NCBI RefSeq assembly: GCF_003319125.1
Contig: NZ_QOHG01000005.1
Span: forward strand, 124,001-188,000
Length of the DNA stretch: 64,000 nucleotides
DNA from: Blastococcus sp. TF02A-26
Lineage (GTDB): Bacteria; Actinomycetota; Actinomycetes; Mycobacteriales; Geodermatophilaceae
Direction of reading: 5' to 3'
A model generated the notes under the pieces. That model made no database searches, was not told the DNA's origin, and saw only the letters and a list, made by a program, of their open reading frames with translations. Position 1 is the stretch's first letter; each line of letters opens with the position of its first letter. The translations under genes were made by a program, and so were the position numbers. Shown here in pieces: positions 1 to 57,330 of the stretch.

Positions 1-2203
1 TGATCTCGCGCAGCACGGCCTCGGCGTCGGGGTCCTGGGTCTCCCCGTGCAGCGGGTAGTCCCAGGTCATGTGCAGCAGCGCCTGGTCCCGCGGGTCGGT
101 GGAGTCCTGGAGCCGCTCCCGCAGGATCCGGCCCAGGTGGTAGTAGAACCACAGGTCGCTGCGGGCGTCGCCCGGCGGCTCGACCGCCTTCTCCCGCCAC
201 TGCAGCATCCGCTGCGTCTGGGTGAAGGTGCCCTCCTTCTCCACGTGCGAGGCGCAGGGGAGGAAGAAGACCTCGGTGCCGATCGTCTCCGGCGCGAGCT
301 CCCCGGTCTCGACCTCCGGTGACTCGTTCCAGAAGGTGGCCGACTCGATCATCTGCAGGTCGCGGACGACCAGCCAGTCCAGGTTGGCCAGGCCGAAGCG
401 GTTCATCCGGCCGTTGGGGTGCCCGACCGTGGGGTTCTCGCCGACGAGGAAGTAGCCGGAGACCTTGCCCTCGATCATGTCGGCGATCGTCCGGTAGGAG
501 CTGTGGTCGCCGTTGATCTTCGGGATCCAGTCGAACCGGAAGTCGTTCTCCGGCTGCGCGGCGTCGCCGAACCAGGCCTTGAGCAGGCTCACCATGTACG
601 CCCGCTTGTTGCCCCAGAACCCGGCCTTGCCGGCCGCGTCGGCGCAGTACTCGTCCAGCGTCTGGTGCTGCATCGCGTGCGGCATCGGCAGGTAGCCGGG
701 CAGCAGGTTGAACAACGTCGGGACGTCGGTCGAGCCCTGGATGCTCGCGTGCCCGCGCAGCGCCATGATCCCGCCGCCGGGACGGCCGATGTTGCCCAGC
801 AGCGTCTGCAGGATCGACGCGGTGCGGATGTACTGCGCGCCGACGCTGTGCTGCGTCCAGCCCACCGAGTAGACCCACGCCGTCGTCCGCTCGCGGTTGG
901 AGTTCTCCGTGACCCACTTCGCGACCTGCTCGAACACCGCCGGCTCGATGCCGCACACCTCGGCGACCATCTCCGGGGTGTAGCGGGCGTAGTGCCGCTT
1001 GAGGATCTGGAAGACCGTCCGCGGGTGCTCCAGCGTCTCGTCGCGCTTGGGCTTCGCCGGGATCGGCGGGCCGCCGCTGCCGGCCGCCTGCGCCCGGTCG
1101 GAGTCCTTGACGTCGGGGTGCTGCTCGCTGCGGTCCTGCTCGGCTGCGCCGGCGGGGTCGTCGGACCCGGAGTGGGCCGGCTCCTCCGGCTCGTACTGCC
1201 AGCTGGCCTCGTCGTAGTGGTTGGTCTCCGGGTCGAAGCCGGAGAACAGCCCGTCGAGCTCCTCGGTGTCGACGAACTCCTCACCGACCAGCGCCGCGGC
1301 GTTCGTGTAGGCGACGACGTACTCGCGGAACCAGAGGTCGTTCTCCAGCACGTACCGGATCAGCCCGCCGAGGAACGCGATGTCGGTGCCGATCCGCAGC
1401 GGCACGTGCAGGTCGGCGACGGCGCTGGTCCGGGTGAACCGCGGGTCGATGTGCACGATCTTGGCGCCGCGCGCCTTGGCCTCCATCACCCACTGGAAAC
1501 CGACCGGGTGGCACTCGGCCATGTTCGAACCCTCGATGACGATGCAGTCGGAGTTCGAGAGGTCCTCCAGGAAGTTCGTGGCACCGCCACGACCGAACGA
1601 GGCACCCAGACCGGGCACCGTGGAGGAGTGCTATATGCGCGCCTGGTTCTCGATCTGGATCGCGCCCAGGGCGCTGTAGAGCTTCTTCATGAGGTAGTTC
1701 TCCTCGTTGTCGAGGGTCGCCCCTCCGAGGCTCGCTATCCCCATGGTCCGGTTCACCCGGTGCCGGTTCCCCGGCGGTCCGTCCTCGTCCTGCCAGTGCT
1801 TGCGCCGGGCCTCCAGCACGCGGTCGGCGATCATCTCCATAGCCGTGTCGAGCTCGAGGTCCTCCCACTCCGTCCCGTACGGACGGCGGTAGCGGACCTT
1901 CGTCACCCGGGACGGGCTGGTCACCAGCTGCTTGCTCGCCGCGCCCTTGGGGCACAGCCGGCCGCGGTTGACCGGCGAGTCCGGGTCGCCCTCGATCTGG
2001 GTGATCCGGCCGTCCTCGACGTAGACCTTCTGCGCGCAGCCGACGGCGCAGAACGGGCAGACGCTCTTCGCGACGTGGTCGGCGGTCGCGGTGCGGCTGA
2101 CCACCGCCTCGGTTCCCTTGCTGCGCGCGGCCTTGCCCCGCCCCAGCGGATCGGAGCCGGTGAGCTGCCGGAACACCGGCCACGCGTCGAGCCACGTCTT
2201 CAC
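1..2203 (-). CDS. fdhA: Formate dehydrogenase alpha subunit, selenoprotein with UAG-encoded Sec; 3' end beyond window
   Basis: Molybdopterin (bis-MGD) catalytic subunit that oxidises formate to CO2. Read from a GTG at 2203, it shows a [4Fe-4S] motif CPFCAVGC at residues 49-56 with the fourth Cys at 84 (LCPKG). The frame meets one stop, TAG at 1631-1633 (codon 191), in the context QARI-stop-HSSTVPGLG. In E. coli FdnG the selenocysteine lies in the same context (QARV-U-H). After the TAG the frame stays open for 543 codons to the left edge; I checked every in-frame codon. It continues with family-typical sequence (GSNMAECHPVGFQW, HIDPRFTRTSAVAD, GNIGRPGGG, GENPTVGHPNG). No Tat signal is seen, so it is probably cytoplasmic. 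An insert of about 45 residues rich in Asp, Glu, Ser and Pro lies near residues 290-335. A conventional reading would split this gene into an N-terminal fragment and an orphan C-terminus. It is divergent from the VanZ-like gene. Confidence 0.93.
1601..1633 (-). promoter_or_regulatory. Bacterial SECIS hairpin directly downstream of the UAG codon
   Basis: On the minus strand, 12 nt after the TAG, GGTGCCC (1619-1613) pairs with GGGTGCC (1607-1601), a 7-bp stem with two G-U pairs. It closes on the 5-nt loop GGTCT (1612-1608). The loop begins 18 nt after the stop codon. As I recall it, the E. coli fdhF SECIS has the same GGUCU loop at the same 18-nt distance, where the GU is contacted by SelB. The match in loop and spacing supports a functional SelB-binding element that acts on UAG instead of UGA. 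Confidence 0.82.
1631..1633 (-). other. In-frame TAG at the selenocysteine position of fdhA
   Basis: Read on the minus strand, the codons are CAG GCG CGC ATA TAG CAC TCC TCC. TAG takes the place held by TGA (Sec) or TGC (Cys) in other formate dehydrogenases. It is the only stop in 734 codons. Seen: the TAG and the flanking homology. Inference: it is decoded as selenocysteine by a tRNA-Sec with a CUA anticodon. That tRNA and the selA/selB/selD genes are not in this window. I recall a published report of UAG-directed selenocysteine in Geodermatophilus and Blastococcus, which fits, but I could not check it here. Confidence 0.85.
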
Positions 2204-27165: not shown

Positions 27166-27461
27166 TGACACGTGGGCGGCGGGTTCGGAGATGAGGCAAG
27201 CACCTCCGGGCCCGCCGCTCGGTCCCTGCTTCCTATCACTCCGGTGAGCCGATCACAGCCCGAGACAGGCTGATGCCGGGTCCGCCCAGTGGCTGCTGGC
27301 GTCATAGCCACGCATAGTGCTGACGTTCCTCTAGCGCCCGGCGACTTCTCGCGGCCTCCGGTTTCAGGGTTTCTCGACACCCCTTCGAGCCGCCCAGCAG
27401 GGCGAGAGCGGATCGAGAGTTTCCCGTATCCACGGCCTCGGCTTACGCGTAGCCGCCCACG
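27166..27461. other. Intergenic stretch between small genes and tRNA-Ser
   Basis: About 300 bp without a supported gene. Frames here are short and unlike known proteins. It is the chromosomal flank (3' side of the tRNA on the minus strand) adjoining the integrated element; nothing else was seen. Confidence 0.4.
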
Positions 27462-27549
27462 CGGAGGGCGTGGGATTCGAACCCACGAAGAGGGGTTACC
27501 TCTTAGCGGTTTTCAAGACCGCCGCACTAGGCCGCTATGCGAGCCCTCC
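27462..27549 (-). tRNA. tRNA-Ser(UGA), chimeric: 5' half from the integrated element
   Basis: Minus strand, 88 nt. Acceptor GGAGGGC pairs with GCCCTCC; discriminator G; no encoded CCA. Anticodon arm GCGGT-CTTGAAA-ACCGC gives anticodon TGA, serine. The long variable arm (AAGAGGTAACCCCTCTT) marks a class II tRNA, and the T arm is GTGGG-TTCGAAT-CCCAC. The 39 nt from 27549 to 27511 (5' half) belong to the element side of attL; the rest is chromosome. The chromosomal 5' half it replaced is at 51986-51948 and differs at 5 of 39 positions, all in the D-arm and the stretch just 3' of it, leaving acceptor and anticodon stems intact. Confidence 0.95.
27511..27525. other. attL core inside tRNA-Ser
   Basis: TTTCAAGACCGCCGC is identical to 51948-51962. 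It covers the anticodon loop and the 5' side of the anticodon stem of the tRNA. Left of it is chromosome; right of it is element. Confidence 0.85.
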
Positions 27550-31751: not shown

Positions 31752-33830
31752 GTGCCGAGGTATGAGGGTCGCCTAGAGCTGACCTGGACCAACAAGCACG
31801 AGCAGCTTCTTGCTCACGAGGACGGCACCTACGAGTGGTTGCCAGCGTCCGACTATCGGGTCGCAGAGGTGCGGCTTCTGCGCGAAACCGAATCAGTTGG
31901 AGACGTCAGCGAGCGCAGAGCGGGCGACAACCTTCTTATCCGCGGTGACGCGCTGCACGCACTTAAGAGCCTCTCGAAGCTGCCCGAGTTCTCGCGCGAA
32001 TACGTCGGCAAGGTCCGTCTCTGCTACATCGACCCACCCTTCAACACCGAGCAAGCCTTCCCGGACTACGACGACAACCTCGAGCACTCCGTTTGGCTCA
32101 CGATGCTGCGTGACCGCCTGATGGAGATTTACCCGCTGCTTACCGATGACGGATCCGTGTGGGTACACCTCGACGATGCAGAAGTACACCGCTGCCGGGC
32201 CGTACTGGACGAAGTGTTTGGGGCAAAGAATTTCGTCGCGACCGTCATCTGGCAAAAGGCTTACTCACCTAAGAACGACGCGCCTGCTCTGAGCACAGAC
32301 CAGGACTACATCCTCGTCTACTCGAAGAACCCGGACTGGCGTTCCAACCGACTGCCACGACTGGCCTCTCGCGATGCGCTCTACACAACGCCTGACGGCG
32401 ACCCGCATCCGTGGGTCTCAGGCGACCCCGCCGCGCCCAGCGCTCACCGCAATCAAACTTGGGTATACGCCATCCAGTCACCATTCACGGGCGATCTGGT
32501 GTACCCAGCAGACGGCCGGTGCTGGGGATCGAAGCAAGAAACCATGAAGGAACTCGTCGAGGAGTGGGGAGTTCCCTACGAGGTTCGCGAGATCGGCGAC
32601 GATGAGCGTCGAGCGCATATCTGCGGCGTCTCTGTAGAAGACGTCCGTAAGGGCATCGGCGCTCTCATGGTCAAAGGCGACCTCGACGAAGCACGAGAGA
32701 CCGTAAGGGAGCGATACGACGCGGGCTCCTGGCCGAGGCTCTACTTCACTCGAGGCGGCCGCGGTGGCCTGAAGCTAAAGCGCTACCTCGGCGAGATCAG
32801 CCAGAGCCGAGTGCCACAAACGTTGTGGCTGAACGACGAAGTAGGTCACAACCGAACGGCGAAGGCGGAGATCAAGGCTCTTTTCCCTCAGCTGAACCCG
32901 TTTGCGACGCCCAAGCCAGAGCGGCTCATTCAGCGCATTCTGCAGATCGCCACAGACCCCGGCGACATTGTCTTGGACTGTTTCGCAGGGTCCGGCACAA
33001 CCCCGGCTGTCGCTCACAAGATGGGACGACGCTGGATCGCCGTTGAGCGGTCGCCCGAGACCATCGGCAAGTTCACCCTGCCCCGCCTCACCAAGGTTGT
33101 CCTCGGTGAAGATCCGGGCGGGGTCAGCACCGTCAAGGTGCCAGCGGGAGAAGACCTCCCCGAGGGGGTCTTCCCAGGCCAAGCAAAGGCCGCGGCCAAG
33201 GTTGTGAGCACCTTCCTCGAAGCGGGCGCCCTCGACGACGTCGAGGGCATCGAGGCTGGTGCGGCCAAGGCGCTGGTGGCTCTGCTGCGCAAGGCGGACA
33301 AGACAACCACCGAGGTTCTCTGGGAGGGCGGTGGTGGATTCCGCGTTCTGGCTGTCAGTGAGTCGATGTTCGAGAGCGACCCCGATGGCCTTGTCTACCT
33401 GTCGGATTCGATCAGCAACGGTGAACTGGCCGAGGCAACAGCTGCGCAGCTGGGCTACGAGTACAGGTCAGATCCTCCCTTCGCCGGCATCAAGGGGAGG
33501 ACCCGCCTGGCAGTAGTGGACGGCGTGGTGAACGACGACGTCGTTCGCCTCCTCGTGTCAGCACTAGCCGATGACGAGCGGGTGCTGGTCTGCGGGACCG
33601 GCATCGATCCCCAGGCACGAACCCTGCTAAAGGACCTTCGCCCCGGCTCCACGCTGCGCAAGGTGCCCGCCGCGCTCCTGCAGCGCTACCGCAATGCGCA
33701 ACGTCGGGAGCGCCGCGCTGGACTCGAGCGCCGATCGACGGAGCCTTCACAGCAGACGACGGAGCCCGAGGCGACGGCCTCGAGTAGCGACCCGACACAA
33801 ACAGCGACGGCAACGGGGGCGAGCGCTTAA
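31752..33830 (+). CDS. Type III restriction-modification methyltransferase (Mod)
   Basis: A 692-aa N6-adenine (or N4-cytosine) methyltransferase. Motif IV comes first, LCYIDPPFNTEQAF (DPPF), near residue 90; a target-recognition region spans about 150-370; motif I comes later, VLDCFAGSGTTPAVAHKMGRRWIAVERS. This order is the beta class used by type III Mod subunits. The C-terminus (about 590-692) is Ser/Thr/Glu-rich, possibly disordered. GTG 31752 is preceded by AGGGGGGAA at 8 nt and begins where the homology does; the frame is open upstream without similarity. The Res gene starts within its stop codon (TAATG). Confidence 0.88.
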   Translation: MPRYEGRLELTWTNKHEQLLAHEDGTYEWLPASDYRVAEVRLLRETESVGDVSERRAGDNLLIRGDALHALKSLSKLPEFSREYVGKVRLCYIDPPFNTEQAFPDYDDNLEHSVWLTMLRDRLMEIYPLLTDDGSVWVHLDDAEVHRCRAVLDEVFGAKNFVATVIWQKAYSPKNDAPALSTDQDYILVYSKNPDWRSNRLPRLASRDALYTTPDGDPHPWVSGDPAAPSAHRNQTWVYAIQSPFTGDLVYPADGRCWGSKQETMKELVEEWGVPYEVREIGDDERRAHICGVSVEDVRKGIGALMVKGDLDEARETVRERYDAGSWPRLYFTRGGRGGLKLKRYLGEISQSRVPQTLWLNDEVGHNRTAKAEIKALFPQLNPFATPKPERLIQRILQIATDPGDIVLDCFAGSGTTPAVAHKMGRRWIAVERSPETIGKFTLPRLTKVVLGEDPGGVSTVKVPAGEDLPEGVFPGQAKAAAKVVSTFLEAGALDDVEGIEAGAAKALVALLRKADKTTTEVLWEGGGGFRVLAVSESMFESDPDGLVYLSDSISNGELAEATAAQLGYEYRSDPPFAGIKGRTRLAVVDGVVNDDVVRLLVSALADDERVLVCGTGIDPQARTLLKDLRPGSTLRKVPAALLQRYRNAQRRERRAGLERRSTEPSQQTTEPEATASSSDPTQTATATGASA

Positions 33831-36292
33831 TGGCCGGTGACCTGGAGCTCCACGAGGACGTTATCGCTGAGGTGGCAGCGCGACTTGCCCTCCGCGAGCC
33901 GAACAAGCTGGCCGTCGAGACCCTCGACGCTGAGCTCTCACAGCACTACGACGTGGACGCGCAGCAAGAGCCGCTGGAGGTCGTCTTCGACGTGGCCACC
34001 GGCGTTGGCAAGACCTTCATCCTTGCCGGTGCCATGGAGTTGTTGGTCGAGGCGTATGGCGTCCGCGACTTCGTGATCATTACTCCGGGCAGCACGATTC
34101 TTAACAAGACTCGCGACAACTTCACCGTAGGGCACCGGAAAAGTCTGCTGGGCCCCATGTGCTTTCAGCCGGTCGTAATCACCGCCGAGAACTTCGCGAC
34201 GCCAGCCATGCGCGCGTCGATGGAGGATCAAGACAAGGTCAAGGTCTACCTGTTCACGGTGCAGTCCCTACTGCGGCCGACGGCGAAGACCAACCGCAAG
34301 GTGTATCGGTACGAAGAGGGCCTTGGGGCGGAGTTCTACGAGCACCTGCGGAGCACCAAGCCCCTGGCCGTGTTCGCCGACGAGCATCACGCTTACTACG
34401 GCAAAGCCTTTTCTGCGGCGGTGCGAGACCTCAACCCATGGCTGCTCCTCGGCCTCACGGCGACTCCGCATAAGCAAACCCCGAGGGAAGCCATCGTCTA
34501 CCGGTATCCGCTAGCGGCCGCGATCGCGGACAAGCTGGTCAAGACACCGGTCATCGTCGGGCGCAAGGATGACCGCACCGACTCGCTGACGAAGCTGGCC
34601 GACGGAGTAACGCTGCTGCAAGCGAAGGCCGAGGCCATCGCATCGCACGTCGCCACGCTCGACGCCGAGGTCGTCAACCCGGTGATGCTTGTGGTCGCTA
34701 AAACGATCGAGGAGGCGGACGAGTACGGCGAGATCCTCCGCTCGGATGAGTTCTTCGCAGGTGCATACGCCGACGCGGTTCTTGTCGTGCACTCGGAGTC
34801 CCCGGACGAAGCCCTGGCTGCGCTGGACAAGGTTGAGGACGCCGGCTCCCCCGTGCGCGTCATCATCTCGGTCGGGATGCTCAAAGAAGGCTGGGATGTT
34901 CGCAACGTCTACGTCATCGCCTCGATGCGAGCCAGCGTCTCAGAGATTCTGACCGAACAGACTCTCGGCCGCGGCATGCGCCTGCCCTTTGGCAGCTACA
35001 CCGGCATCGAGATTCTGGACACGGTCGAGGTCATCGCGCACGAGCGGTATCAGGACTTGCTGAAGAAGGCCGGCGTGCTCAACGAGGCCTTCGTCGATCA
35101 CCGCACCCGCGCCGTCGTGCGGAGGAACGCCCAGGGGCAGCAGGTCGTCGTCACCGAGACGACCACCGCGAGCGTTGAGCCCGTAGTCGCCGGTGCCGAC
35201 GAGGAGGCGCCGGCTCCCAATCCTGATGACAACCCCGCTCCGGTCGTGACCACGGTTCAAGACCGAACGAAGCAGGCGACCGAGGCAGTCACGAAGCTGA
35301 AGCAAGAGATCGCTCGACTGCCCGAGGCACCCGCCATCAAGCTTCCGGTGCTGCGGATGACGGCTGTTCAGAGCAAGTTCTCGCTTGCGGACATCACCGA
35401 CACAGACGGCTTTCGCAAGCTCGGGGTGTCTTTGGCTGCCGACCCTGCCGGCGAGCTGAGTCGAACACTGCTCAGTGCCCGCATCGTCAAGGGACGGGAC
35501 GGAATGCGCCGCACGGAGCTCGTCACGAGCACCGCTGCAGATCGCGTCCGTTCCGCCCCGACGCTGGTCCCCGCGGACGAGCTGCGGACCAACCTGGCGG
35601 AGCTGGTGCTCGCGTCGCCATCCGTGCCCGCTCGCAGAGGCGAGCGGGCCGCACTTCAGCCGCTGCTCGACACGTTCTTCGAGGGCCTGGGAGACAAGGC
35701 TGTCGAGATTCTGTCCGCCAACCTCGGCCGCGCGGGCGCTCGACTGGTTCGGCTGGTCGAGCAGGAGCAGCGTCGATTCATGGCCAAGCCGAGCTACGAC
35801 GAGGTCATCGAGCTGGCCAGCTTCAGCCCCATCCGAGTCACGGACCGAGACGTGTCGGGCGACCGCCACGGGGCCTTCTCGCGGTCTGTCGCCTACGAGG
35901 GCTGGGCGCGAGGCATGTTCCCCCTCGCCTGGTTCGACTCAGCTCCCGAGCGAGCCGTCGCCAACATCGTTGATGACGATGACGGGGTTGCCTGGTGGGT
36001 ACGTCTCCACAACGGTGACCTGCCCATCCTTTGGAACTCGGGCGGCCAGCAGTACAACCCCGACCTGATCGTGATCGAGACCGATGGCACCCACTGGGTG
36101 GTGGAGGTCAAGATGGACAAGGAAGTCACCTCGGCCGATGTCCAAGCCAAGCGTGAGGCAGCTAAGCGCTGGGCGAATCACGTCTCCGCGGACGCGAGCG
36201 TTAACACTCGCTGGCGGTACCTGCTCATCTCCGAGGCCGATGTTTCCGATGCAAAGGGCTCCTGGCCCGCGCTGAAGGGTCTGGGAACGTAA
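33830..36292 (+). CDS. Type III restriction enzyme helicase/nuclease (Res)
   Basis: An 820-aa superfamily 2 helicase-nuclease. Walker A: VVFDVATGVGKTFILAGAM (about 50-68). DEAH-like box: AVFADEHHAYYGKAF. Motif III: LGLTATPHK. Motif VI: TEQTLGRGMRLPFG. The C-terminal nuclease of PD-(D/E)xK type: QYNPDLIVIETDGTHWVVEVKMDKE (about 741-765), matching the EcoP15I Res layout. The region 440-480 is Ala/Glu/Pro-rich linker. Both active sites are intact, so cleavage is expected after convergent translocation with Mod. Length is shorter than the 950+ aa of some type III Res subunits but within the family's range. Confidence 0.88.
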   Translation: MAGDLELHEDVIAEVAARLALREPNKLAVETLDAELSQHYDVDAQQEPLEVVFDVATGVGKTFILAGAMELLVEAYGVRDFVIITPGSTILNKTRDNFTVGHRKSLLGPMCFQPVVITAENFATPAMRASMEDQDKVKVYLFTVQSLLRPTAKTNRKVYRYEEGLGAEFYEHLRSTKPLAVFADEHHAYYGKAFSAAVRDLNPWLLLGLTATPHKQTPREAIVYRYPLAAAIADKLVKTPVIVGRKDDRTDSLTKLADGVTLLQAKAEAIASHVATLDAEVVNPVMLVVAKTIEEADEYGEILRSDEFFAGAYADAVLVVHSESPDEALAALDKVEDAGSPVRVIISVGMLKEGWDVRNVYVIASMRASVSEILTEQTLGRGMRLPFGSYTGIEILDTVEVIAHERYQDLLKKAGVLNEAFVDHRTRAVVRRNAQGQQVVVTETTTASVEPVVAGADEEAPAPNPDDNPAPVVTTVQDRTKQATEAVTKLKQEIARLPEAPAIKLPVLRMTAVQSKFSLADITDTDGFRKLGVSLAADPAGELSRTLLSARIVKGRDGMRRTELVTSTAADRVRSAPTLVPADELRTNLAELVLASPSVPARRGERAALQPLLDTFFEGLGDKAVEILSANLGRAGARLVRLVEQEQRRFMAKPSYDEVIELASFSPIRVTDRDVSGDRHGAFSRSVAYEGWARGMFPLAWFDSAPERAVANIVDDDDGVAWWVRLHNGDLPILWNSGGQQYNPDLIVIETDGTHWVVEVKMDKEVTSADVQAKREAAKRWANHVSADASVNTRWRYLLISEADVSDAKGSWPALKGLGT

Positions 36293-44403: not shown

Positions 44404-47400
44404 GTGGCGACCAGAAGCAGCAAACTCACCGGGTCTGCCGCGTCCGTCTTCAAGTACCTGAAGGACGACGAGAAGGTGCTCGGCTACTACGACGTTGCCG
44501 AGGGCTTTAACGACGTGTGGGGGGATCTCGCCCAAGAACTCGGGCTTGAATCCGGCATCACGAAAGAGCAGTGGTCCGAATTGTTCGATGGGCGCTGGAA
44601 CGGCGAAAAGCTCGTTTCCAGCGGCTATCGCCAGGTTCGTGATTCCGAAACGAAGGAGATCATCGGTCGAGAACTTGGCGTGCGTACACCCATGATCGAC
44701 GTCGTATTCGCCGTCCCCAAGGGCATCAGCGAACTCTACGCCCGGGCCCACTCAGAGGCAGAGGCCAAAGCCATAGCTGACGCGGTGCTGGCTGCGGCCA
44801 AGGTTGCTTGGACCGAAGGGGTCGAGAGTCACGCACGAGTCGCCCGCGTACCCGCTGGCCGGAATCCCGTCACCGGAAAGCCCGCCAGTGAGCGAGTGAC
44901 CGCCAAACTGCTCTGCACACCGGCTCTGCAATTCACCGCACGACCTACACAAGACACCATCGACCGCGGATCGCCCGCTGATCCGCATCTGCACGTCCAC
45001 TGCGCCACCTTCACCGCCTGCCAGGCCCACGGGCGCTGGCTAACGGCTGATGAAGCTGGCATTAAGCGCTCAGCGGTGTTTCGGGACGCAATCTTCATGG
45101 GCGAGGTGTCCCGCAACATCGAGAACCTCGGCTACAAGCTCGACTACAGCGACTTGCACTCCTCGCGCTCGGGTCGCATCTCCTTCGAGCCTCAGGCGTC
45201 TGATCCGAAGCTGCGGAAGTTCTGGTCCACCAATCACGAACGGACCTACTCCATCGTCCGCGACTTCGAGGAAAAGTGGCACCGGCCGCCAACGGATGCC
45301 GAGCTAAACCAGATCATGAGCGTCACCCGGGGACGCAAGGCCGATAAGGAGATGGACAGCCGCCCGGTGCGCCAGCGTTGGCTCGACAGCGCTCGGGCTC
45401 AGGGCCTCGATGCGGGCTTGGTTCCGCCCGGCACCTTCGAGCGAGCGGACTACGACGACCGAGCCGTCGAGCTGTGGGACCGGCTGATGTCAGCCAAGGG
45501 GCTGTGCATCAAGGACGCCACCTTCAGCGGCGACACCATCGCGATCGCCATAGCCCGCAACGCCATCGGTCTCGGCTTCACCCGCGAGGAGCTACGCCGC
45601 TACGAAGCTGAGCTCCGCGAAGCGCTGGTGGTGGTGCGCCCAGCAGCTGACGATCGACACCAGCTCTACACCACCCACGTCCAGTTAGACCGCGAGCACT
45701 TCATCACCGCTCGGCGGCGCGAGAAGGCCCGCCAGGGCTTGCCGCGGGTCCCTGAGGCGCTCGTGCGGCGGGCTCTGGCCCGCCAGCCGGTGCGCCTCGA
45801 TGCCGAACAGCAGCGCGGCGTTGCCGCCGCCTGTGGGGCTTCCGGCTGGGTCCACATCGAGGGCTATGCCGGCAGTGGCAAGACGACCCTGCTGGCCGCT
45901 GCTCGCGACGCCCATCGGCTCGCTGGGACCGCGGACCGCTTCATCGTGGCCTCCACGGCAGCAGCAACCGCCGAGCGCACGGGCCGCAAGCTCGAAGCCG
46001 ACGACTGGGGATCGGTCGAAAGCCTGGCCGGGCGCATCGACGCCGGCAGGCTCACCGTCACCGCAAGAACGGTCTGGTTCGTCGATGAGGCGGCCATGAT
46101 GGACACCGCTCGCATGGCCGAGCTACTGCGGATCGCTGGCTCAGGACGCGTCGTGCTCGTGGGCGACGCGAAGCAGCTCTCGCCCATTGGACCTGCAGGC
46201 TGGTACGGCGAATCGGTGGCCGAACACGGCTCGGTCCTGCTCACCAGGGTGCATCGCCACCGCGATGCTGCCGACATCCGCGACTACGAGCTGCTCCGAG
46301 TTGGCAAGGCCCCGGAGGCCGTGGCCAACCTCGATGAGCGCCAGCGCATCCACATCGATGAGGACCGCTCTGCTCGCCTGCAGCGGGTCATGCGCGACTA
46401 CACCAACATGCGGGACCTCGGCAGCTACACGGCCGAACAGATTCGCCAGGTCATCGAGACGTCGAACCACGACGTGGACACCATGAACCGCTTCATCCAG
46501 CGTGACCGCCTGACCCGCAGAGAACTCGCCGGCCAAGGATTCGAGGTGGAAGACGTCGAGCAGGGCCGTCGCTGGCTGATTCACCGGGGCGACCAGGTGA
46601 TCTTCTTACGCACCTACCAGGGCGACGATGCGCCGATCCGAAACGGCACCGCGGGCACGGTCGTCGGCCTCGACCCCGCCACAGGACGCGCACAGATCGC
46701 TCTCGGCGACCGCCTGGCCACGGTCTGGCTACAGGCCAGCGAACACCGCCAGCCAGTAGGGCTGGCCTATGCCCAGCACGCGAACAAGCTGCAGGGCGGC
46801 GAAGTTGAGATGGTGCAGGTGATGCCCGGCGGCATCGCCACGGCGAACGCGAACTCGGGCTACTCCCAGCTGACCCGCGCCCGCCACGAAGCCCACGTCT
46901 ATCTCGACCGGGACACCTTGGGCGACGAGCCCTTCGACGCCTTGGCCCGCGCCTGGTCGGTCCCTTACGAGAAGCGCTCAGCGACGTGGCACCAGCGCCA
47001 TGAGCCAACCGAGCCGGCTCGCAAGCCTTTCGACCGCGACGTCGCGGCCACTGCGGCCGACGAACGAGCGGACTGGATTGCCGAGCACTACGGCGAGGAC
47101 TTGGCTCGGGTCATCTCCCAGTCGCCGGCGTACCCCGGCCTCGTCGCCACCCTCCAAGAGCTGAAAGACCAGGGCAACGACGCGACGGCGATGCTGGCCG
47201 AGGCCATCGAGGACCGGGAGCTGAGAAGCGCCAAGGACCCCGCCGCGGTCATCTCCTGGCGTCTCGACCAGGTGCCCGAGAGGGATGTCGAAGCCGAGCT
47301 GCCTGTCGTTGCACCCGCGAGGCCCTCCACCGACATAGCGCCCGAGCCGGCTCGGCCGAGCCGGTTCACGATCCGTCGCTCCACAGAGCAAGAGATCGAT

Positions 47401-47418
47401 CGCGGCATCAGCTACTAG
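44404..47418 (+). CDS. MobF-family relaxase/helicase (TraA/TrwC-like)
   Basis: A 1004-aa conjugative relaxase. N-terminal TrwC domain: start MATRSSKLTGSAASVFKYLKD, with one candidate catalytic Tyr pair in LGYYDVAEGFND, and the metal-binding His triad PADPHLHVHCATF (HxHxH). A C-terminal helicase follows: Walker A GYAGSGKTTLLAAARDAH, Walker B WFVDEAAMM, and later motifs (VLVGDAKQLSPIGPAGW, AYAQHANKLQGGEVEMV). The far C-terminus is Pro/Glu-rich. It nicks at oriT, stays bound to the 5' end and unwinds DNA during transfer. GTG 44404 has GAGGAGGGGAGC upstream. Stop is TAG. Confidence 0.92.
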   Translation: MATRSSKLTGSAASVFKYLKDDEKVLGYYDVAEGFNDVWGDLAQELGLESGITKEQWSELFDGRWNGEKLVSSGYRQVRDSETKEIIGRELGVRTPMIDVVFAVPKGISELYARAHSEAEAKAIADAVLAAAKVAWTEGVESHARVARVPAGRNPVTGKPASERVTAKLLCTPALQFTARPTQDTIDRGSPADPHLHVHCATFTACQAHGRWLTADEAGIKRSAVFRDAIFMGEVSRNIENLGYKLDYSDLHSSRSGRISFEPQASDPKLRKFWSTNHERTYSIVRDFEEKWHRPPTDAELNQIMSVTRGRKADKEMDSRPVRQRWLDSARAQGLDAGLVPPGTFERADYDDRAVELWDRLMSAKGLCIKDATFSGDTIAIAIARNAIGLGFTREELRRYEAELREALVVVRPAADDRHQLYTTHVQLDREHFITARRREKARQGLPRVPEALVRRALARQPVRLDAEQQRGVAAACGASGWVHIEGYAGSGKTTLLAAARDAHRLAGTADRFIVASTAAATAERTGRKLEADDWGSVESLAGRIDAGRLTVTARTVWFVDEAAMMDTARMAELLRIAGSGRVVLVGDAKQLSPIGPAGWYGESVAEHGSVLLTRVHRHRDAADIRDYELLRVGKAPEAVANLDERQRIHIDEDRSARLQRVMRDYTNMRDLGSYTAEQIRQVIETSNHDVDTMNRFIQRDRLTRRELAGQGFEVEDVEQGRRWLIHRGDQVIFLRTYQGDDAPIRNGTAGTVVGLDPATGRAQIALGDRLATVWLQASEHRQPVGLAYAQHANKLQGGEVEMVQVMPGGIATANANSGYSQLTRARHEAHVYLDRDTLGDEPFDALARAWSVPYEKRSATWHQRHEPTEPARKPFDRDVAATAADERADWIAEHYGEDLARVISQSPAYPGLVATLQELKDQGNDATAMLAEAIEDRELRSAKDPAAVISWRLDQVPERDVEAELPVVAPARPSTDIAPEPARPSRFTIRRSTEQEIDRGISY

Positions 47419-47566
47419 AAGCACCTCGCTCCACTACCTGGTGTAGGGGCCTCAGGGGGAAGAAACTCCTCACCCTTGAGGGGGACGCGACATCTCCCTC
47501 CTCGGTGTGAATCTCATGGCTGCAACTTCAACGCAGCGTTACCGAGACGATCACGGAGGGCTACTC

Positions 47567-49294
47567 ATGGCACGCTCACGGTGGAAGTGGTCCGACTCGG
47601 ATGAGATCGAGCCAGAGACCGCCGCTGCCGGCATCGAGAGCTACCACCACCTGTACTCCTGGCGGGCTCACAACCCCGATCGCTTGCCCGACAATTGCGT
47701 CTACATCGGCATTGCGGGCGACCTCATCATGTCGCAGCCGAACACCAACCTGTTGGTTCTCGGGCCGTCCCAGGGAGTAGGTAAGACGTCGGGCAACGTG
47801 GTTGCCCAGGTGCTCTGCGCCCGGGGTCCTGTCATCGTCACCAGCTCCAAGGGGGACATCATCGCGCCGCTGGTCATGGCACGAGCCCTCGTGGGCACCG
47901 TCTGGTTCTACTCCCTCGACGGCGATGCCGTGCCGCCCGGTATGAATGAGCTGCGTTACTCACCAGTCCCAATGTGTCGAGACTGGGGCACAGCCCAACT
48001 GACAGCGACCGCCATTGTGAAGTCCTCGAAGGAGCCCGGTCAGGCCAGTAGCGACACCAACGCCTTCTTCGATGACCAGGCCGCCTTCACCTTGGCCTGC
48101 TTCCTCTTCTACGCAGCGCGCCTCGGCCATGACATGGCGTGGGTCGTCTCCATGATCAACAACCCACGCGATGGCGGGGACGGCCAGCCGTGGGGCATGG
48201 CCGAGATGTTGGCTGTCCTCGAGGAGCGGGGCCATGAGGACGTCGCTGACGCACTCGCCGGTCTCGCTAACGCCCCCGATCGCCAGCGTGCCAGCGTCTT
48301 TGCCACCGCGTCACGAGCCCTGCGCGCCTATTCGCTGCCGTCGGTGCTGGCCACCACCAAGGATCCCAATTTCAGCATCGATGCGTTCGTGGCCGGACAG
48401 CCGGAAGCGGAGCAAGAGTCCATGAACTGGGACGGCGACTGCCAGTTGGAGGGCGCCTACGACACCGTCTTCATCACCGCGGCCGAACAGACCCTGGTCA
48501 TGGGGCCAGTGGTTGCTGCCTTTCTCGCCCAGGCTCGCAGCCGACGCCGCAAGCTCTTCCGAGCTGACACCGATCCTGATCGTCCAGGCTTGGCGCATAG
48601 GCCGCCGCTGACCTTCATGCTCGACGAGCTGGCCACCATGGCTCCGATCTACGACCTGCCGGACCAGCTCGCCATCGGCAACGAAGGCATGGTCACCGTC
48701 GGCGTGCTGCAGGACATCAGCCAGGCCAAGCGCATCTGGGGTGCCGAGCTGGGCAAGGGGCTGCTCACCTTGTTCCAGAACGTCTTGATCTTCCGGGGTA
48801 TCCGAGACTCCGAGACGTTGCAGGCCATCAGCGCGATTGCCGGCCAGGCCTGGATCGAGGTTCAGGGCTCCAACCAGGGCACCTCGTCTTCCGGACTGTT
48901 CGACCCGGTCACCCAGTCCTCTGGCATGAGCGTGACCCAGCAGCTCGTGCCCGCTCTTCCCCTCGATGCCATCGTGCAAGGACACCCCCAGCACCCGGAC
49001 GCGGTGCTGTGGCTGCGCCCCGACGGCTCGCACCAGTGGGTCCACAACGCGCCCTACTACCGGGCTCGGCCGTGGGTGCCAATCCTGGTTCAGACGATGG
49101 AAGACATCGCCCGTCTGCCCCTCGATGACCCCCGGCGTCTGCTGCGGGTACCGAACCTCTTCGACGGCTACGTGGGCCACACCTTCGGCCTTGGGCACTG
49201 GGAACAGCGCTACTGGAACGCCCGCCAGCAGCTCGATCGGACCCGTCGATCCATTCTCGGCCGCAACGCCGCTGAGATGGGTGCTTCTCAGTGA
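47567..49294 (+). CDS. Type IV coupling protein (TraG/TraD-like)
   Basis: A 575-aa ATPase that links the relaxase complex to a secretion channel. Walker A: LLVLGPSQGVGKTSGNVV (about 61-78). Walker B: PLTFMLDELATMAPIYDLP. A TraM-recognition-like region (LPDQLAIGNEGMVTVGVLQDISQAKRIWG and FQNVLIFRGIRDSETLQAIS) is present. The N-terminal TM segments of TraG are absent; the protein starts with charged residues (MARSRWKWSDSDEIEPE), a soluble form common in actinobacteria where the membrane part is a separate protein, perhaps the next gene. ATG 47567 has CACGGAGGGC 6 nt before. Confidence 0.87.
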   Translation: MARSRWKWSDSDEIEPETAAAGIESYHHLYSWRAHNPDRLPDNCVYIGIAGDLIMSQPNTNLLVLGPSQGVGKTSGNVVAQVLCARGPVIVTSSKGDIIAPLVMARALVGTVWFYSLDGDAVPPGMNELRYSPVPMCRDWGTAQLTATAIVKSSKEPGQASSDTNAFFDDQAAFTLACFLFYAARLGHDMAWVVSMINNPRDGGDGQPWGMAEMLAVLEERGHEDVADALAGLANAPDRQRASVFATASRALRAYSLPSVLATTKDPNFSIDAFVAGQPEAEQESMNWDGDCQLEGAYDTVFITAAEQTLVMGPVVAAFLAQARSRRRKLFRADTDPDRPGLAHRPPLTFMLDELATMAPIYDLPDQLAIGNEGMVTVGVLQDISQAKRIWGAELGKGLLTLFQNVLIFRGIRDSETLQAISAIAGQAWIEVQGSNQGTSSSGLFDPVTQSSGMSVTQQLVPALPLDAIVQGHPQHPDAVLWLRPDGSHQWVHNAPYYRARPWVPILVQTMEDIARLPLDDPRRLLRVPNLFDGYVGHTFGLGHWEQRYWNARQQLDRTRRSILGRNAAEMGASQ

Positions 49295-52025: not shown

Positions 52026-52796
52026 TCACCCGGTGAGCAGCATGCCGCCGTTGACGTCGATGACCTGCCCGTTGATCCAGGCACCGGCGTCGGAGAGGAG
52101 CAGCGCGGCCAGCCCCGCGACGTCGTCGGGCTCGCCCAGCCGCGGGCTCCACGTCTGCGCCAGCGCCGCGGCGAGGAACGCTGGTGACAGCTGCGCCCGG
52201 GCGTTGTCGGTCAGCACCACCCCGTAGCTCAGCGCGTTGCAGCGGACGCCCCGCTTGCCCCAGGTGGCGGCCACGTGCCGGGTCAGCGTCTCCACCCCGG
52301 CCTTCGCCGCCTGGTAGGCGATCCGGGTCGTGCCGGCGCCACGGGCGGCGTTGGACGACGTGTTGACGATCGACCCGCCACCCCCGTCCAGCATGAGCGG
52401 GATCGCCGTCCGGCAGGTCGCGGCGTAGGCCAGCAGGTGGGAGCGCAACTGCAGGTCCCACGTCCCGTCGGGCGTGGAGACGACGTCACCGTCGTGCCGG
52501 TGCGCGGCGGGGTTGCCGGCCACGTTGTGCAGCCCGTCGAGCCGGCCGTAGCGCTCGACCGCCGTCCCGATGAGGGCGGCGCTGCTGGCCGGGTCGCCCA
52601 TGTCGAACGCGACGGCCACCGCCTCGCCGCCGCCGGCCCGGATCGCCGCGGCGACCTCCTCGGCCCGGTCGACGTCGATGTCGCCGACCACGACCCGGGC
52701 ACCGGAGGCGCCGAGCAGGCGGGCCGTCGCCCGGCCGGTCCCCCCGCCACCGCCGGCGACCACGACGACCCTGCCCTCGAGACCGTCCACGCGCAC
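52026..52796 (-). CDS. SDR-family oxidoreductase
   Basis: A 256-aa classical short-chain dehydrogenase. TGxxxGxG replaced by GGGGGTGRATA (VVVAGGGGGTGRATARLLG, residues 10-28), NAG region present as HNVAGNPA, catalytic Ser in SIVNTSSNAARG, YxxxK as YQAAKAGVETL, and NGQVIDVNGGML near the end. NAD(H) binding is suggested by Asp in VVVGDIDVDRAEE. Substrate unknown. It is the first chromosomal gene after attR, and its stop lies 40 bp from the tRNA remnant. Divergent from the SDR gene at 52862. Confidence 0.85.
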   Translation of the reverse strand: MRVDGLEGRVVVVAGGGGGTGRATARLLGASGARVVVGDIDVDRAEEVAAAIRAGGGEAVAVAFDMGDPASSAALIGTAVERYGRLDGLHNVAGNPAAHRHDGDVVSTPDGTWDLQLRSHLLAYAATCRTAIPLMLDGGGGSIVNTSSNAARGAGTTRIAYQAAKAGVETLTRHVAATWGKRGVRCNALSYGVVLTDNARAQLSPAFLAAALAQTWSPRLGEPDDVAGLAALLLSDAGAWINGQVIDVNGGMLLTG

Positions 52797-52861
52797 CCCT
52801 CCACTGCTAATGATTGACCCGCAGCGGAGCGGAGCCTCCGCGCCGTGTCAAGGGAGGAACC

Positions 52862-53620
52862 GTGGACGGACGGCTGACCGGCCGCGTGGCGATCGTGACC
52901 GGGGCGGGCCAGGGCGCCGGCCGGGGCTGTGCCCTGGCGCTGGCCGCCGAGGGTGCGTCGGTGGTCTGCGTGGGGCGCACCCGCGCGCCGCTGGAGTCGG
53001 TCGCCGCGCAGATCGCCGCGGCCGGCGGCACGGCGCGCGTCTCCCCGGCCGACGTCACCGGCGCGGCGGCTCGGCTCGCGGTCGTGGACGACACCGTCGC
53101 GGCGTTCGGCCGGCTCGACGTCCTCGTCAACGCCGCGCAGGCGCCCGCGATGCGGGCGGCCGACCTGCTCGACGTCACCGACGCGGAGATCGCCGAGCTG
53201 TGGACGTCGGGCCCGGTGGCCACGCTCGCCCTCATGCGCGCCTGCCACCCGCACATGAAGGCGGCCGGCGGGGGGTCGATCGTCAACTTCGCCAGCGGCG
53301 CGCTGCGCCGGCCCGCCCACTACGGCGTCTACGCCGGCGTGAAGGCGGCCATCGAGACGATCGGCGTCGCCGCGGCGGTCGAGTGGGGACCCGACGGCAT
53401 CCGCACCAACACCGTCGTCCCGATCGTCGAGTCGCCGTCGCTGGACCTCGACCTCACGGCCGAGCAGCGCGAGCGGTACCGCGCCGGGATCCCGCTGGGC
53501 CGGATCGGCCGGCCGGAGGAGGACGTCGGCCGGGCCGTCGCCTTCCTGGCCGGGGACGACGCCGCCTACGTCAGCGGGAACACGCTGCGACTGGACGGAG
53601 CCGCCTGGAGCGCCCGCTGA
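52862..53620 (+). CDS. SDR-family oxidoreductase
   Basis: A 252-aa short-chain dehydrogenase. TGxxxGxG: VTGAGQGAGRG (residues 10-20), Asp-like switch VCVGRTRAP (Arg, suggesting NADP), NAG replaced by VNAAQAPA, catalytic Ser in VNFASGALRR, YxxxK as YAGVKAAIETI. The family ends with GNTLRLDGAAW. GTG 52862 has GGGAGGA 6 nt upstream. The two divergent SDR genes, 65 bp apart, may share one pathway; the substrate is unknown. Confidence 0.85.
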   Translation: MDGRLTGRVAIVTGAGQGAGRGCALALAAEGASVVCVGRTRAPLESVAAQIAAAGGTARVSPADVTGAAARLAVVDDTVAAFGRLDVLVNAAQAPAMRAADLLDVTDAEIAELWTSGPVATLALMRACHPHMKAAGGGSIVNFASGALRRPAHYGVYAGVKAAIETIGVAAAVEWGPDGIRTNTVVPIVESPSLDLDLTAEQRERYRAGIPLGRIGRPEEDVGRAVAFLAGDDAAYVSGNTLRLDGAAWSAR

Positions 53621-53676
53621 GCGGTCCGGGCCCGTGGCATGCTGCGCGCACTCCCGAACGACCGGCAGGAGAGCGC

Positions 53677-56157
53677 GTGCCCACCCCGTATGCCAGCGTC
53701 GGCGGCAGCGATCCCGGCCTGCGCGAGCACGCCGCCGAGGTGCGCCGCCGCGGACTGCCCCTGGTGCCGGCGGCGGAGGGGGTCACCTTCCGCCTCGACG
53801 TCGACGCCGGCGGCGGGCTGCTCGGCGTGACCTCGGCCGACGCCGGGGAGGACAGCGCCGTCCCCGGGTTCTGGGCCGGCCCGGTCACCACCGTCGTCTG
53901 CCGGGAGCTCCTGGCCGACCACGAGGACTTCTGGCGCTCCCGCCTGGTCGCCGACCTCCCCGGCGCGGACGACGTGCAGCTGGTCACCGGCCTCGTCGAC
54001 CTCGCGCACGCCGGACCGGGTGCCTACCGCCGCGGCCGCACCACCCGGCTGCGGCTGTCGCTGGCCGCGGAGCGCGTCTCGACCGGAGACGCGGAGCCCG
54101 CGCTCTCCTGCCCGCCCGGGGAGCCCCTCGCCGCGGTGACCGGCGTCGTCCGCGCGGCGCAGCGCCGGACGTCGGGCCGCACCGGGCGCTCGTTCGCGGT
54201 GCTCACCGTGGACACCGCCGGACTGGCCCTCGACGTCTGCGCCGCGCCGGAGGTCCTCGCCGACCTGCCGGCGGAGGGGTCGACCGTCACCGCGGTCGGC
54301 CGGCTCGTCGGCGTCTTCGCCGGCACCGTCGGCGAGCTGGCACCGGAGCTGTCCCCCGACGTCGAGCCGCCCCTGGTCGTCACCGCCCGGCCCGTGGTGG
54401 TCCCGCGCGCGCCCGTGCCGCTGCTCGCACCCGCCGACGCCGCCGACCGGCCGGCGAGCACCCCCCTGCTGGAGCTCCCCCGCAGCGCCCAGGTGCTCGC
54501 GCCGATGGTGCACACCGCAGGCGCGACCGACGCCGGGGTCGTCGCCTGCTGCGTCGACTGGGACGGCCGCTGGCAGCTGCGCCGCTTCGCCCCCGGCGCG
54601 GTCGTCCCCGACGGCGTCGTCGACCTCGCCGGGCACCCCGAGCAGTGCGTCGTCCACCGCGGCGGCGTCGCCGTCGTCGTCGGCCGGGAGCTGCTGGTGC
54701 TCGACGCCGGCCTGCAGCTGCTGCACCGGACCGCGTTCCCCCCGCACGGGCTGCTGCACCTGGTCGCCTCGCCGTCGGCCGTGCACGTGCTGGTCACCGA
54801 GCCCGCCGGGCCGGCCGACGCGCCCGACGACGCCGGGCGCCGTGCCGTGGCCCAGGGCGCGACGGTGCACCGCTACCGGCTGCACCGGCTGGACCTCGTC
54901 CGCCTCGGCGACCCCGCGGCCGACCCGTGGCAGCGGATGCAGCTGCCGGTCAGCGGGATCTACCCGCCGACCGCGCCGAGCGAGGTGCCCGGCTGGGTCG
55001 AGCCGACGGCGGCCGACACCCGGGGCGAGGGCCTCTGGTTCGCCGTCCCCGGACGCGACGCCTGGGACCGGCCGGCCCAGCACCACCTGACCGTCTCCGC
55101 CGAGGGCGCGCTGGCCATGCAGACCGACCCCGACGGCCCGCCGTGGGCCACCGGCCGGCTCCGGCACGGGGAGGTGCTGCTCACCGCCGACTCCTCGGGA
55201 CCGGCGGTGGACGGCCGGCGACCGGCGTCGACCGGCCCGGTCGCCGCCCGGCTGCTGACCGGGGAGGTGCCGGCCGCGGTCGCCACCCGGTTCGACGGGC
55301 AGGGCACGGTCCTGTTCGAGCTCCGCGCCGGCGGGTGGACGCAGGTGGCCGCCACCCCGCGCGCGGTGCTGGTCAGCTCGGCGGTGGACCGGCGCACCGC
55401 CGCCCGCTGGTACGGCTTCTCCGGCTCCGACTCCCCCGGCGTCCTCGGTGTGGTGACCGGCGAGGGCGCCCTCCGCCCGGTCCTGCAGACGCGGGAGCCG
55501 TTCGCGCTCGTCGCCGTCGCCGCCGACGCCGCGGTCGCGACGACGCCCTCCCCCGGCGCACCCGTGTTGGACCTGCGCGACGGCCGGTTGCGGGCGTCCG
55601 CCGGTCCCGGCGACGCGACCGCCCGCCCTGGTCCAGGTGGGGACGTCGTGGTGAGCGGGCCGGAGTGGACCGACAGCCGGCTGCGGGCACGGGTGCCCGA
55701 CGGGTGGTCGGTCGCCGAGAGCTGGACCCTGCGGGCGCCCGACGGGCAGTCGACCGTCGTCGTCTCCCGGGAACCGCTGCCGCCGGGCGTCGGGGCCGAG
55801 CAGTACGCCCAGGGCCACGGCGACCGGCTGGTCGCAGAGTTCCCGCAGTACCAGCAGCACGTGCTCACGGTGCTGCCGCTGGCCTCGGGGCCGGCCTACG
55901 CGCGGCTGTTCTCCTGGGCCGCGCCGGGCGGCGCGCGGATCACCCAGGTGCAGGTGTACGCGACCGCGCCGGGCACCGGGTTCACCGCGTCGGCCACCAC
56001 GTCCGCGGCGTCGTTCGGCGCCGTCGCCCAGGTGGTCGACGACGTCCTGCGCTCCCTGGATTTCGACACGGGCGCGCCCCGGGGTGCCCCCGCACCGACG
56101 GGCGGGTCGACGGCGGCCACCGTCCTCGCCCAGCTGCCACCCCGTCCCCCGGCCTGA
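53677..56157 (+). CDS. Large protein of unknown function with DcrB-like C-terminus
   Basis: An 826-aa soluble protein without a signal peptide. Residues 120-215 (PLAAVTGVVRAAQRRTSGRTGRSFAVLTVDTAG and AEGSTVTAVGRLVGVFAG) look like an OB-type fold. Residues 270-660 are rich in short strands with repeated W, H and D, suggesting a beta-propeller-like body. Residues 680-800 (DGWSVAESWTLRAPDGQSTVVVSREPLPPG, EQYAQGHGDRLVAEFPQYQQHVLTVLPLASGPAYARLFSW, AVAQVVDDVLRSLDF) match the DcrB/DUF1795 layout of a PsbP-like module. It is not close to any protein I know by name. GTG 53677 follows GGCAGGAGAG. Confidence 0.65.
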   Translation: MPTPYASVGGSDPGLREHAAEVRRRGLPLVPAAEGVTFRLDVDAGGGLLGVTSADAGEDSAVPGFWAGPVTTVVCRELLADHEDFWRSRLVADLPGADDVQLVTGLVDLAHAGPGAYRRGRTTRLRLSLAAERVSTGDAEPALSCPPGEPLAAVTGVVRAAQRRTSGRTGRSFAVLTVDTAGLALDVCAAPEVLADLPAEGSTVTAVGRLVGVFAGTVGELAPELSPDVEPPLVVTARPVVVPRAPVPLLAPADAADRPASTPLLELPRSAQVLAPMVHTAGATDAGVVACCVDWDGRWQLRRFAPGAVVPDGVVDLAGHPEQCVVHRGGVAVVVGRELLVLDAGLQLLHRTAFPPHGLLHLVASPSAVHVLVTEPAGPADAPDDAGRRAVAQGATVHRYRLHRLDLVRLGDPAADPWQRMQLPVSGIYPPTAPSEVPGWVEPTAADTRGEGLWFAVPGRDAWDRPAQHHLTVSAEGALAMQTDPDGPPWATGRLRHGEVLLTADSSGPAVDGRRPASTGPVAARLLTGEVPAAVATRFDGQGTVLFELRAGGWTQVAATPRAVLVSSAVDRRTAARWYGFSGSDSPGVLGVVTGEGALRPVLQTREPFALVAVAADAAVATTPSPGAPVLDLRDGRLRASAGPGDATARPGPGGDVVVSGPEWTDSRLRARVPDGWSVAESWTLRAPDGQSTVVVSREPLPPGVGAEQYAQGHGDRLVAEFPQYQQHVLTVLPLASGPAYARLFSWAAPGGARITQVQVYATAPGTGFTASATTSAASFGAVAQVVDDVLRSLDFDTGAPRGAPAPTGGSTAATVLAQLPPRPPA

Positions 56158-56244
56158 CCGCGGGCCGGGCGGCGGCCCTCGGCGACACGGGCGGCACCGC
56201 GCCTCGAGGGCCGGGTCAGCGGCGGACCGGCCCGTCGCAGGAGC

Positions 56245-57330
56245 TCAGCGTCGCTCGCGTCCGGCGTCCCGGGGCGCGCGGGCGGCGTCCCCCGGCGTCG
56301 GCCCCTCGGGCACGTCGTCCTCCCGCGACACCGGCGTGCCCACCACGCCGTGCAGGTGGCAGGCGGCGAGGTGCCCGTCGGCGGGGCCGACCGGCTGCAG
56401 CGCGGGGTCGACGTCGGGGCACGGCTCGAACGCCTGCGGGCAGCGGGTCCGGAAGCGGCAACCCGACGGCACCGCCGCCGGGGAGGGGACGTCGCCGCGC
56501 AGCACGATCCGCTGCCGGTTGCGCTCCAGCTCCGGGTGCGGAACGGGCACGGCCGACAGCAGCGCCTGCGTGTACGGCATCTGCGGATGGGTCCCGACCG
56601 CCTCCGCCGGGCCGACCTCGACCACCCGGCCCAGGTACATGACGGCGATGCGGTCCGCGACGTGCCGGACGGCGGAGAGGTCGTGGGAGATGAACAGCAG
56701 CGTCAGCCCCAGCTGCTGCTGCAGACGGCGGAGGAGGTTGAGCACCTGCGCCTGCACGCTCACGTCGAGCGAGGCGATGGCCTCGTCGCAGACCAGGAAG
56801 TCCGGCTCGCCGGCCAGCGCGCGGGCGATGCCGACCCGCTGCCGCTGGCCGCCGGAGAACTCGTGCGGGTAGCGGTCGGCCACCGCCGGGTCGAGGCCGA
56901 CCAGCTCGAGCAGCTCGCCGACCCGCGCCGTCCGCTCCCGGCGGCCGCCGTGCAGGCCGTGCACCTCGAGCGGCTCGGACACCGTCTGGGCGACCGTGCG
57001 CCGCGGGTCGAGCGAGGCGAACGGGTCCTGGAAGACCATCCCGGCCCGGCGGCGCAGCTCGCGCAGCTGGCGCCGGCCGAGCGCGGTGACGTCGGTGCCG
57101 TCGAAGGTGACCGTGCCGCCGGTGGGCTCGACCAACCGGAGCAGCGCGTTGCCCAGCGTGGACTTGCCGCACCCGGACTCACCGACCAGGCCGAGGGTCT
57201 CGCCGCGGTGGATGTCGAGGTCGACGCCGTCGACGGCCCGGACGGCACCGGTCGTCCGCCGGAGGGCCCCGCCGGACCGGATCGGGAAGTGCACCTCGAG
57301 CCCGCGGGCCGAGAGCAGGACGTCGCTCAT
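56245..57330 (-). CDS. Oligopeptide/dipeptide ABC transporter ATP-binding protein (OppF/DppF-like)
   Basis: A 361-aa ATPase. Walker [19 protein letters not shown]-loop [12 protein letters not shown], signature [26 protein letters not shown] (with Walker B), H-loop [15 protein letters not shown]. The C-terminal oligopeptide-transporter domain has the Cys pattern [16 protein letters not shown], found in the last subunit of Opp/Dpp/Nik systems. ATG 57330 overlaps the next gene's stop by 4 nt. The Arg/Pro/Asp-rich tail after residue 340 is not conserved. Part of the five-gene importer 56245-61742. Confidence 0.9.

Follow-up and report, generated by a model that had tools for sequence, protein, structure and literature searches.

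An in-frame UAG codon, very probably read as selenocysteine, in a Blastococcus formate dehydrogenase gene, and the change of selenocysteine codon within the Geodermatophilaceae

The locus described here raises the question of what an in-frame TAG means in fdhA, the gene for the major subunit of formate dehydrogenase, and, if the codon is read, as which amino acid. The gene lies at the left end of the window, by which we mean the whole stretch of 64,000 nucleotides from Blastococcus sp. TF02A-26 that was analysed, and a standard-code reading would truncate the enzyme at residue 190. An earlier note, made from the letters of the window, had described a single internal stop in this minus-strand frame, a TAG at the selenocysteine position. 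On re-reading, its position, the codon number, the flanking residues (QIENQARI-[TAG]-HSSTVPGLGA) and the 543 stop-free codons that follow in the window all proved correct, as did the identity of the stop (Table 1). The number 191 for the codon follows from the start selected (Table 1), because the mechanical frame opens 234 codons upstream of the TAG. With the adjoining DNA (L009), the stop-free run after the TAG extends to 910 codons; the gene continues about 1.1 kb past the left edge of the window, the second stop of the frame is a TGA at codon 1102, outside the window, and the product with the UAG read has 1,101 residues. Residues 4-1074 of these match NCBIfam NF041513 (formate_DH_Act) with 1899 bits against a cut-off of 1400. 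Next to fdhA are genes for a 4Fe-4S subunit and then an NrfD-type membrane subunit, and among named fdhA loci the closest, with 93-95% identity to that of the window, come from Blastococcus. When the product was aligned with two formate dehydrogenases of solved structure, 1kqf and 1h0h, the UAG column fell on a residue given as X (modified residue) in both, which we take to be selenocysteine; the TAG stands in the selenocysteine column.

Table 1. Positions of the features discussed (window coordinates unless a genome and contig are named)
Feature	Position	Strand	Remark
fdhA, formate dehydrogenase major subunit, first 734 codons	1..2203	minus	GTG start 2201-2203
In-frame UAG, codon 191 of fdhA, read as selenocysteine (predicted)	1631..1633	minus	column alignment
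SECIS-like hairpin, 7-bp stem, loop GGUCU	1601..1619	minus	stem starts 14 nt after the codon's first base
Type III restriction-modification pair	31752-36292		
TrwC-type relaxase	44404-47418		
TraG/VirD4-type coupling protein	47507-49294		
tRNA-Sec, anticodon CTA, full length	G000:C10:51319-51410		genome of the window
Second-lineage fdhA copies	L146 (G098:C475), L147 (G099:C464); G033:C150, G053:C19, G093:C1		
G059 island, tRNA-Sec(UCA) and UGA-containing AhpD-like gene	L040:1169-2157 (G059:C17:1169-2157)		among transposase genes

The selenocysteine column was compared across fdhA loci of named genomes, and in the best 80 of at least 593 loci it held TAG in 28, TGA in 50 and TGC in 2. The 28 TAG loci are titled Blastococcus, Geodermatophilus, Modestobacter or Klenkia, all genera of the Geodermatophilaceae, plus one 'Frankiales' MAG; relatives outside the family, within the same best 80 of at least 593, mostly carry TGA and some TGC. 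We also surveyed 112 genomes taken as Geodermatophilaceae, with genus groups coded g1-g12. Using a query from the second fdhA lineage discussed below, we obtained 118 formate dehydrogenase matches in 98 of the 112 genomes at E 1e-50 or better, some of them fragments at contig ends, and each with a single TAG.

The genome of the window (4.68 Mb, 99.98% complete) encodes the machinery expected of a selenocysteine user. Its tRNA-Sec with anticodon CTA scores 64.2 bits against the cut-off of 47 for Rfam RF01852; selA and selB come next, in the orientation of the tRNA gene, and selD is located on its other flank. SelA matches PF03841 with 326 bits, SelB has the GTPase (GTP_EFTU), beta-barrel and SelB-wing_3 domains, and SelD, assigned by its AIRS domains, position and sequence, is of the Cys form. 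The fdh genes are on contig C45 and the sel genes on contig C10. A tRNA-Sec with anticodon UCA was not seen in this genome; ARAGORN assigns the six remaining RF01852 hits to tRNA-Ser, Tyr, Leu and Met, although one of these, a tRNA-Ser(TGA) in the window, also exceeds the cut-off, with 51.5 bits. The earlier note had proposed decoding by a tRNA-Sec with a CUA anticodon, had suggested a genome search for that tRNA, selA, selB and selD and a comparison of the codon across the family, and had named a UCA-only tRNA-Sec as one of several observations that would speak against it; all four genes are present, TAG occurs in every close formate dehydrogenase match found in the family, and the proposal is supported.

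Just after the fdhA UAG stands a hairpin of bacterial SECIS form, a putative SelB target. In an alignment of 96 fdh rows (40 TAG, 54 TGA and 2 TGC; the window enters twice, the second time as its own locus), in which the TAG column was inspected directly in the 40 TAG rows, the loop GGUCU is present in all 40 TAG rows and in 47 of the 54 TGA rows. A stem of at least 6 bp closing a 5-nt loop is found in 40/40 TAG and 53/54 TGA rows; it is absent from both TGC (Cys) rows, where selenocysteine recoding is unneeded. Across the 31 distinct sequences, the third bases of a Val and a Gly codon (columns 18 and 30) covary synonymously with five pair types, a covariation score equalled in none of 500 shuffles, and the outermost pair is broken in 13. 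The stability of the hairpin is not above that of shuffles (z = +0.51). When all 1,631 TAG and TGA triplets of the window were screened for an RGUYU-loop hairpin of at least 6 bp at this spacing, with a loop motif derived from the same fdh set, only the fdhA TAG had one.

Taken together, the UAG in the catalytic column, the tRNA-Sec(CUA), the SelA, SelB and SelD genes and the hairpin of SECIS form indicate that the fdhA UAG is very probably a selenocysteine codon, and from these sequence data we put the probability at roughly 0.97. By analogy with the known bacterial pathway, SerRS would load serine onto tRNA-Sec(CUA), SelA would turn it into selenocysteine on the tRNA with selenophosphate supplied by SelD, and SelB, the selenocysteine-specific elongation factor, would bring the charged tRNA to the ribosome and bind the hairpin. 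The codon would then be decoded against competing RF1, not RF2 as at UGA, while other UAGs would remain stops. Mukai et al. 2016 are said to have confirmed selenocysteine at UAG by 75Se labelling and mass spectrometry.

The alternative that survives best is a mixed decoding, with Cys or Ser inserted beside selenocysteine or with frequent stopping, in which much of the product would be truncated or selenium-free. Selenocysteine insertion and release factors do compete in known systems (RF2; passages of PMC8124441), but it is TAG, and not a Cys codon, that is conserved in the family, which argues for a functional selenocysteine, and we consider extensive mixing unlikely. Far less probable is that fdhA has decayed and really stops at the TAG, or that the codon is an artefact of sequencing or assembly. 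Such an origin would account for a frame interrupted by a stop codon, but chance or base error is rejected because the same column carries TAG in 28 of the best 80 named loci, and the single TAG in each of the 118 family matches speaks against it as well. NG86 dN/dS between the window fdhA and 12 chosen relatives is 0.13-0.49 before the TAG and 0.16-0.60 after it, below 1 on both sides for all 12. Against the three nearest relatives the two sides are alike (0.13-0.19 before and 0.16-0.18 after), and in several relatives the value is somewhat higher after the TAG (e.g. 0.55 versus 0.33 for L070). Purifying selection acts on fdhA on both sides of the TAG, and a pseudogene or base error was rejected on these values and on the conservation of the codon. 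Reading of the UAG by pyrrolysine or an ordinary amber suppressor has hardly any probability left: ARAGORN does label the CUA tRNA 'tRNA-Pyl(cta)', but Rfam scores it well above cut-off as a full-length tRNA-Sec, selA adjoins it, the best PylS (TIGR02367) match in the genome reaches 23.2 bits against a cut-off of 178.15, which 1 of 14 control genomes exceeded, and UAG still terminates other genes of the window.

The preferred reading of the fdhA codon as selenocysteine does not extend to UAG as a whole. UAG is the terminator of 8 of 51 roughly called genes in the window (the calls are crude, and two are wrong-strand shadows), and UAG is thus not reassigned everywhere. In the genome of the window, the UGSC family gave 0 matches, and the five AhpC-TSA and four CMD matches contained no internal stop; fdhA is therefore the only UAG selenoprotein found among the four families tested.

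Elsewhere in the window, the region of about 26000-52000 has a lower GC content (63-69%) around the tRNA-Ser(TGA) gene (27461-27549) and contains an HNH nuclease together with the restriction-modification, relaxase and coupling protein genes listed in Table 1; it looks like an integrated conjugative element. Two large open frames of 1195 and 636 aa (crude gene call) occupy 52570-58260 and gave no Pfam match at E 1e-6 and no PADLOC match at 1e-3.

Of the 112 genomes surveyed in the family, 101 showed the CUA tRNA-Sec pattern. It was missing from 11, namely every member of g6, g7 and g8, nine in all, and the incomplete g10 genomes G098 and G099. The nine g6-g8 genomes are fragmented (190-550 contigs, 74-98% complete); seven of them have a tRNA-Sec with anticodon TCA, at least one per genus group (L011-L016, L019), and a tRNA-Sec was not read in the other two (G068 and G072). 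These nine are also among the 14 genomes with no formate dehydrogenase match at E 1e-50, the others being G034, G035, G080, G095 and G097. At E 1e-20, two g8 genomes have a divergent formate dehydrogenase (35%) with TGA at the selenocysteine column, and none was found in the other seven of the nine. In a SelA tree of 42 rows, built by a quick method, all 34 CUA rows fall on one side of a branch scored 99; opposite them stand the rows of g7 and g8, from three genomes with two loci apiece, and an outgroup of two plasmid rows, with no usable row for g6. Rooted on the plasmid rows, this tree indicates that a UCA anticodon became CUA within the family, once the CUA clade had separated from g7 and g8. 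The predicted change thus falls within the Geodermatophilaceae, and genus groups g6-g8, which appear to keep UCA, bracket the change of codon.

Two candidate exceptions were set aside. Outside the family, the CUA pattern occurred in one of 322 sampled genomes of the same order, G230, which belongs to another family and in which both fdhA copies carry TGA. Its CUA tRNA-Sec is on a contig of 4,845 bases (L154, G230:C194) with a selD 90% identical to that of the window's genome, and we read this as a probably misbinned Geodermatophilaceae contig rather than as a true CUA user. With it set aside, anticodon and codon vary in step, CUA with TAG inside the family and mostly TGA in relatives outside it, in support of selenocysteine at the fdhA UAG. 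G037 and G096 were considered as dual-code genomes and rejected, the second tRNA-Sec pattern match being CUA in both.

A second fdhA lineage, with TAG in every copy, is present in five of the 112 family genomes (G098, G099, G033, G053 and G093). In a tree of 93 formate dehydrogenase rows, again built by a quick method, TAG requires two changes: the main family TAG clade comprises 37 rows and is scored 99, and L146 and L147 fall in a clade scored 100 with TGA genes of Amycolatopsis and Streptomyces. The copies of G033, G053 and G093 (95-99% complete) are 87-92% identical to L146 and were assigned by identity, outside the tree. The neighbours of the second lineage in the tree are UGA genes from other families, so its gene was probably transferred with UGA and then changed to UAG. 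Transfer followed by recoding is the simplest reading, and the direction may also have been the reverse.

A different situation is suggested by G059, a g4 genome listed as 100% complete and 1% contaminated. Its native system consists of a CUA tRNA-Sec with selA, selB and selD, an fdhA with TAG and a UGSC-family gene with TAG; a hairpin by the RGUYU rule was not found in the latter, which does have a 7-bp stem around AGUGU when the loop sequence is left free. On contig C17 of the same genome, a tRNA-Sec gene whose anticodon is TCA (81.8 bits) is separated by 315 nt from an AhpD-like gene (TIGR01926, 112.6 bits versus 81.8). This gene has one in-frame TGA, at the position where solved relatives have the second Cys of their CxxC motif (CxxU), and passages of PMC13188914 count CxxU proteins of this family among the known selenoproteins. 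The TGA is followed by a 6-bp stem with the loop AGUUU, whose stability does not exceed that of shuffles (z 0.04). Lying between transposase genes, the first 6 kb of C17 have 61-68% GC against 70-81% in the rest, and selA, selB and selD are absent from this 69-kb contig. Compared with the 25 other genomes of g4, a 3-kb piece of the C17 body matches three at 67-86% along hundreds of bases and the remainder in short stretches only; plain contamination is argued against because the body matches g4 genomes, and C17 may still be a chimeric assembly. As to a donor, the AhpD-like gene had no match in 246 genomes of the class (E 1e-25; a search without a positive control) or in viral contigs, and its plasmid relatives are all below 60% identity; four plasmid records contain stretches that match the tRNA-Sec(UCA) at 79-84%, covering 82-100% of the tRNA, and there was no phage match. 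G059 may, judging from these genes, read both UAG and UGA as selenocysteine, and it would then use two stop codons for this amino acid probably via one shared SelA and SelB. No report of one organism using UAG and UGA for selenocysteine was found in a literature lacking most subscription papers.

If the selenocysteine codon of crown Geodermatophilaceae moved from UGA to UAG, foreign UGA selenoprotein genes would face a code barrier there. We regard it as an even bet that such a barrier exists and has been crossed both by recoding, as in the second fdhA lineage, and by a gene that brought its own decoder, as in the G059 island. More generally, the anticodon of tRNA-Sec together with the codon context, and not UGA itself, would determine the selenocysteine codon, which would be changeable within one bacterial family. 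The family survey offers a testable case, with UCA beside CUA groups, an apparently recoded acquired gene and a possible two-codon genome.

Among known systems, pyrrolysine decoding shares the CUA anticodon and the UAG codon with the window's genome, which differs from it in having no PylS above cut-off and a tRNA that scores as tRNA-Sec. The canonical UGA/SelB/SECIS system of other actinobacteria has the same gene set by the tRNA (fdh-selD-tRNA-selA-selB on Arthrobacter and Tsukamurella plasmids) and, in most TGA rows of our alignment, the same loop; it combines a UGA codon with a UCA anticodon, whereas the window's genome combines UAG with CUA and has fdh and sel on separate contigs. The closest likeness is to the UAG-directed selenocysteine of Geodermatophilus and Blastococcus, with which the window shares family, codon, CUA tRNA-Sec and a formate dehydrogenase selenoprotein, and from which it differs as another strain of a known group. 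This code is already published for the Geodermatophilaceae: section 17 of PMC5330540, in agreement with the earlier note, describes three genomes with CUA tRNA-Sec and UAG selenoproteins comprising formate dehydrogenase, UGSC and, in one, AhpC, and credits the finding to Mukai et al. 2016 (Angew Chem); selenocysteine at UAG is also mentioned in passages of PMC10778597 and PMC8124441. The passages of PMC5330540 are without UCA genus groups, a second TAG fdhA lineage or a genome with two kinds of tRNA-Sec, whereas the survey presented here has all three, and these results, all from outside the window, may be new.
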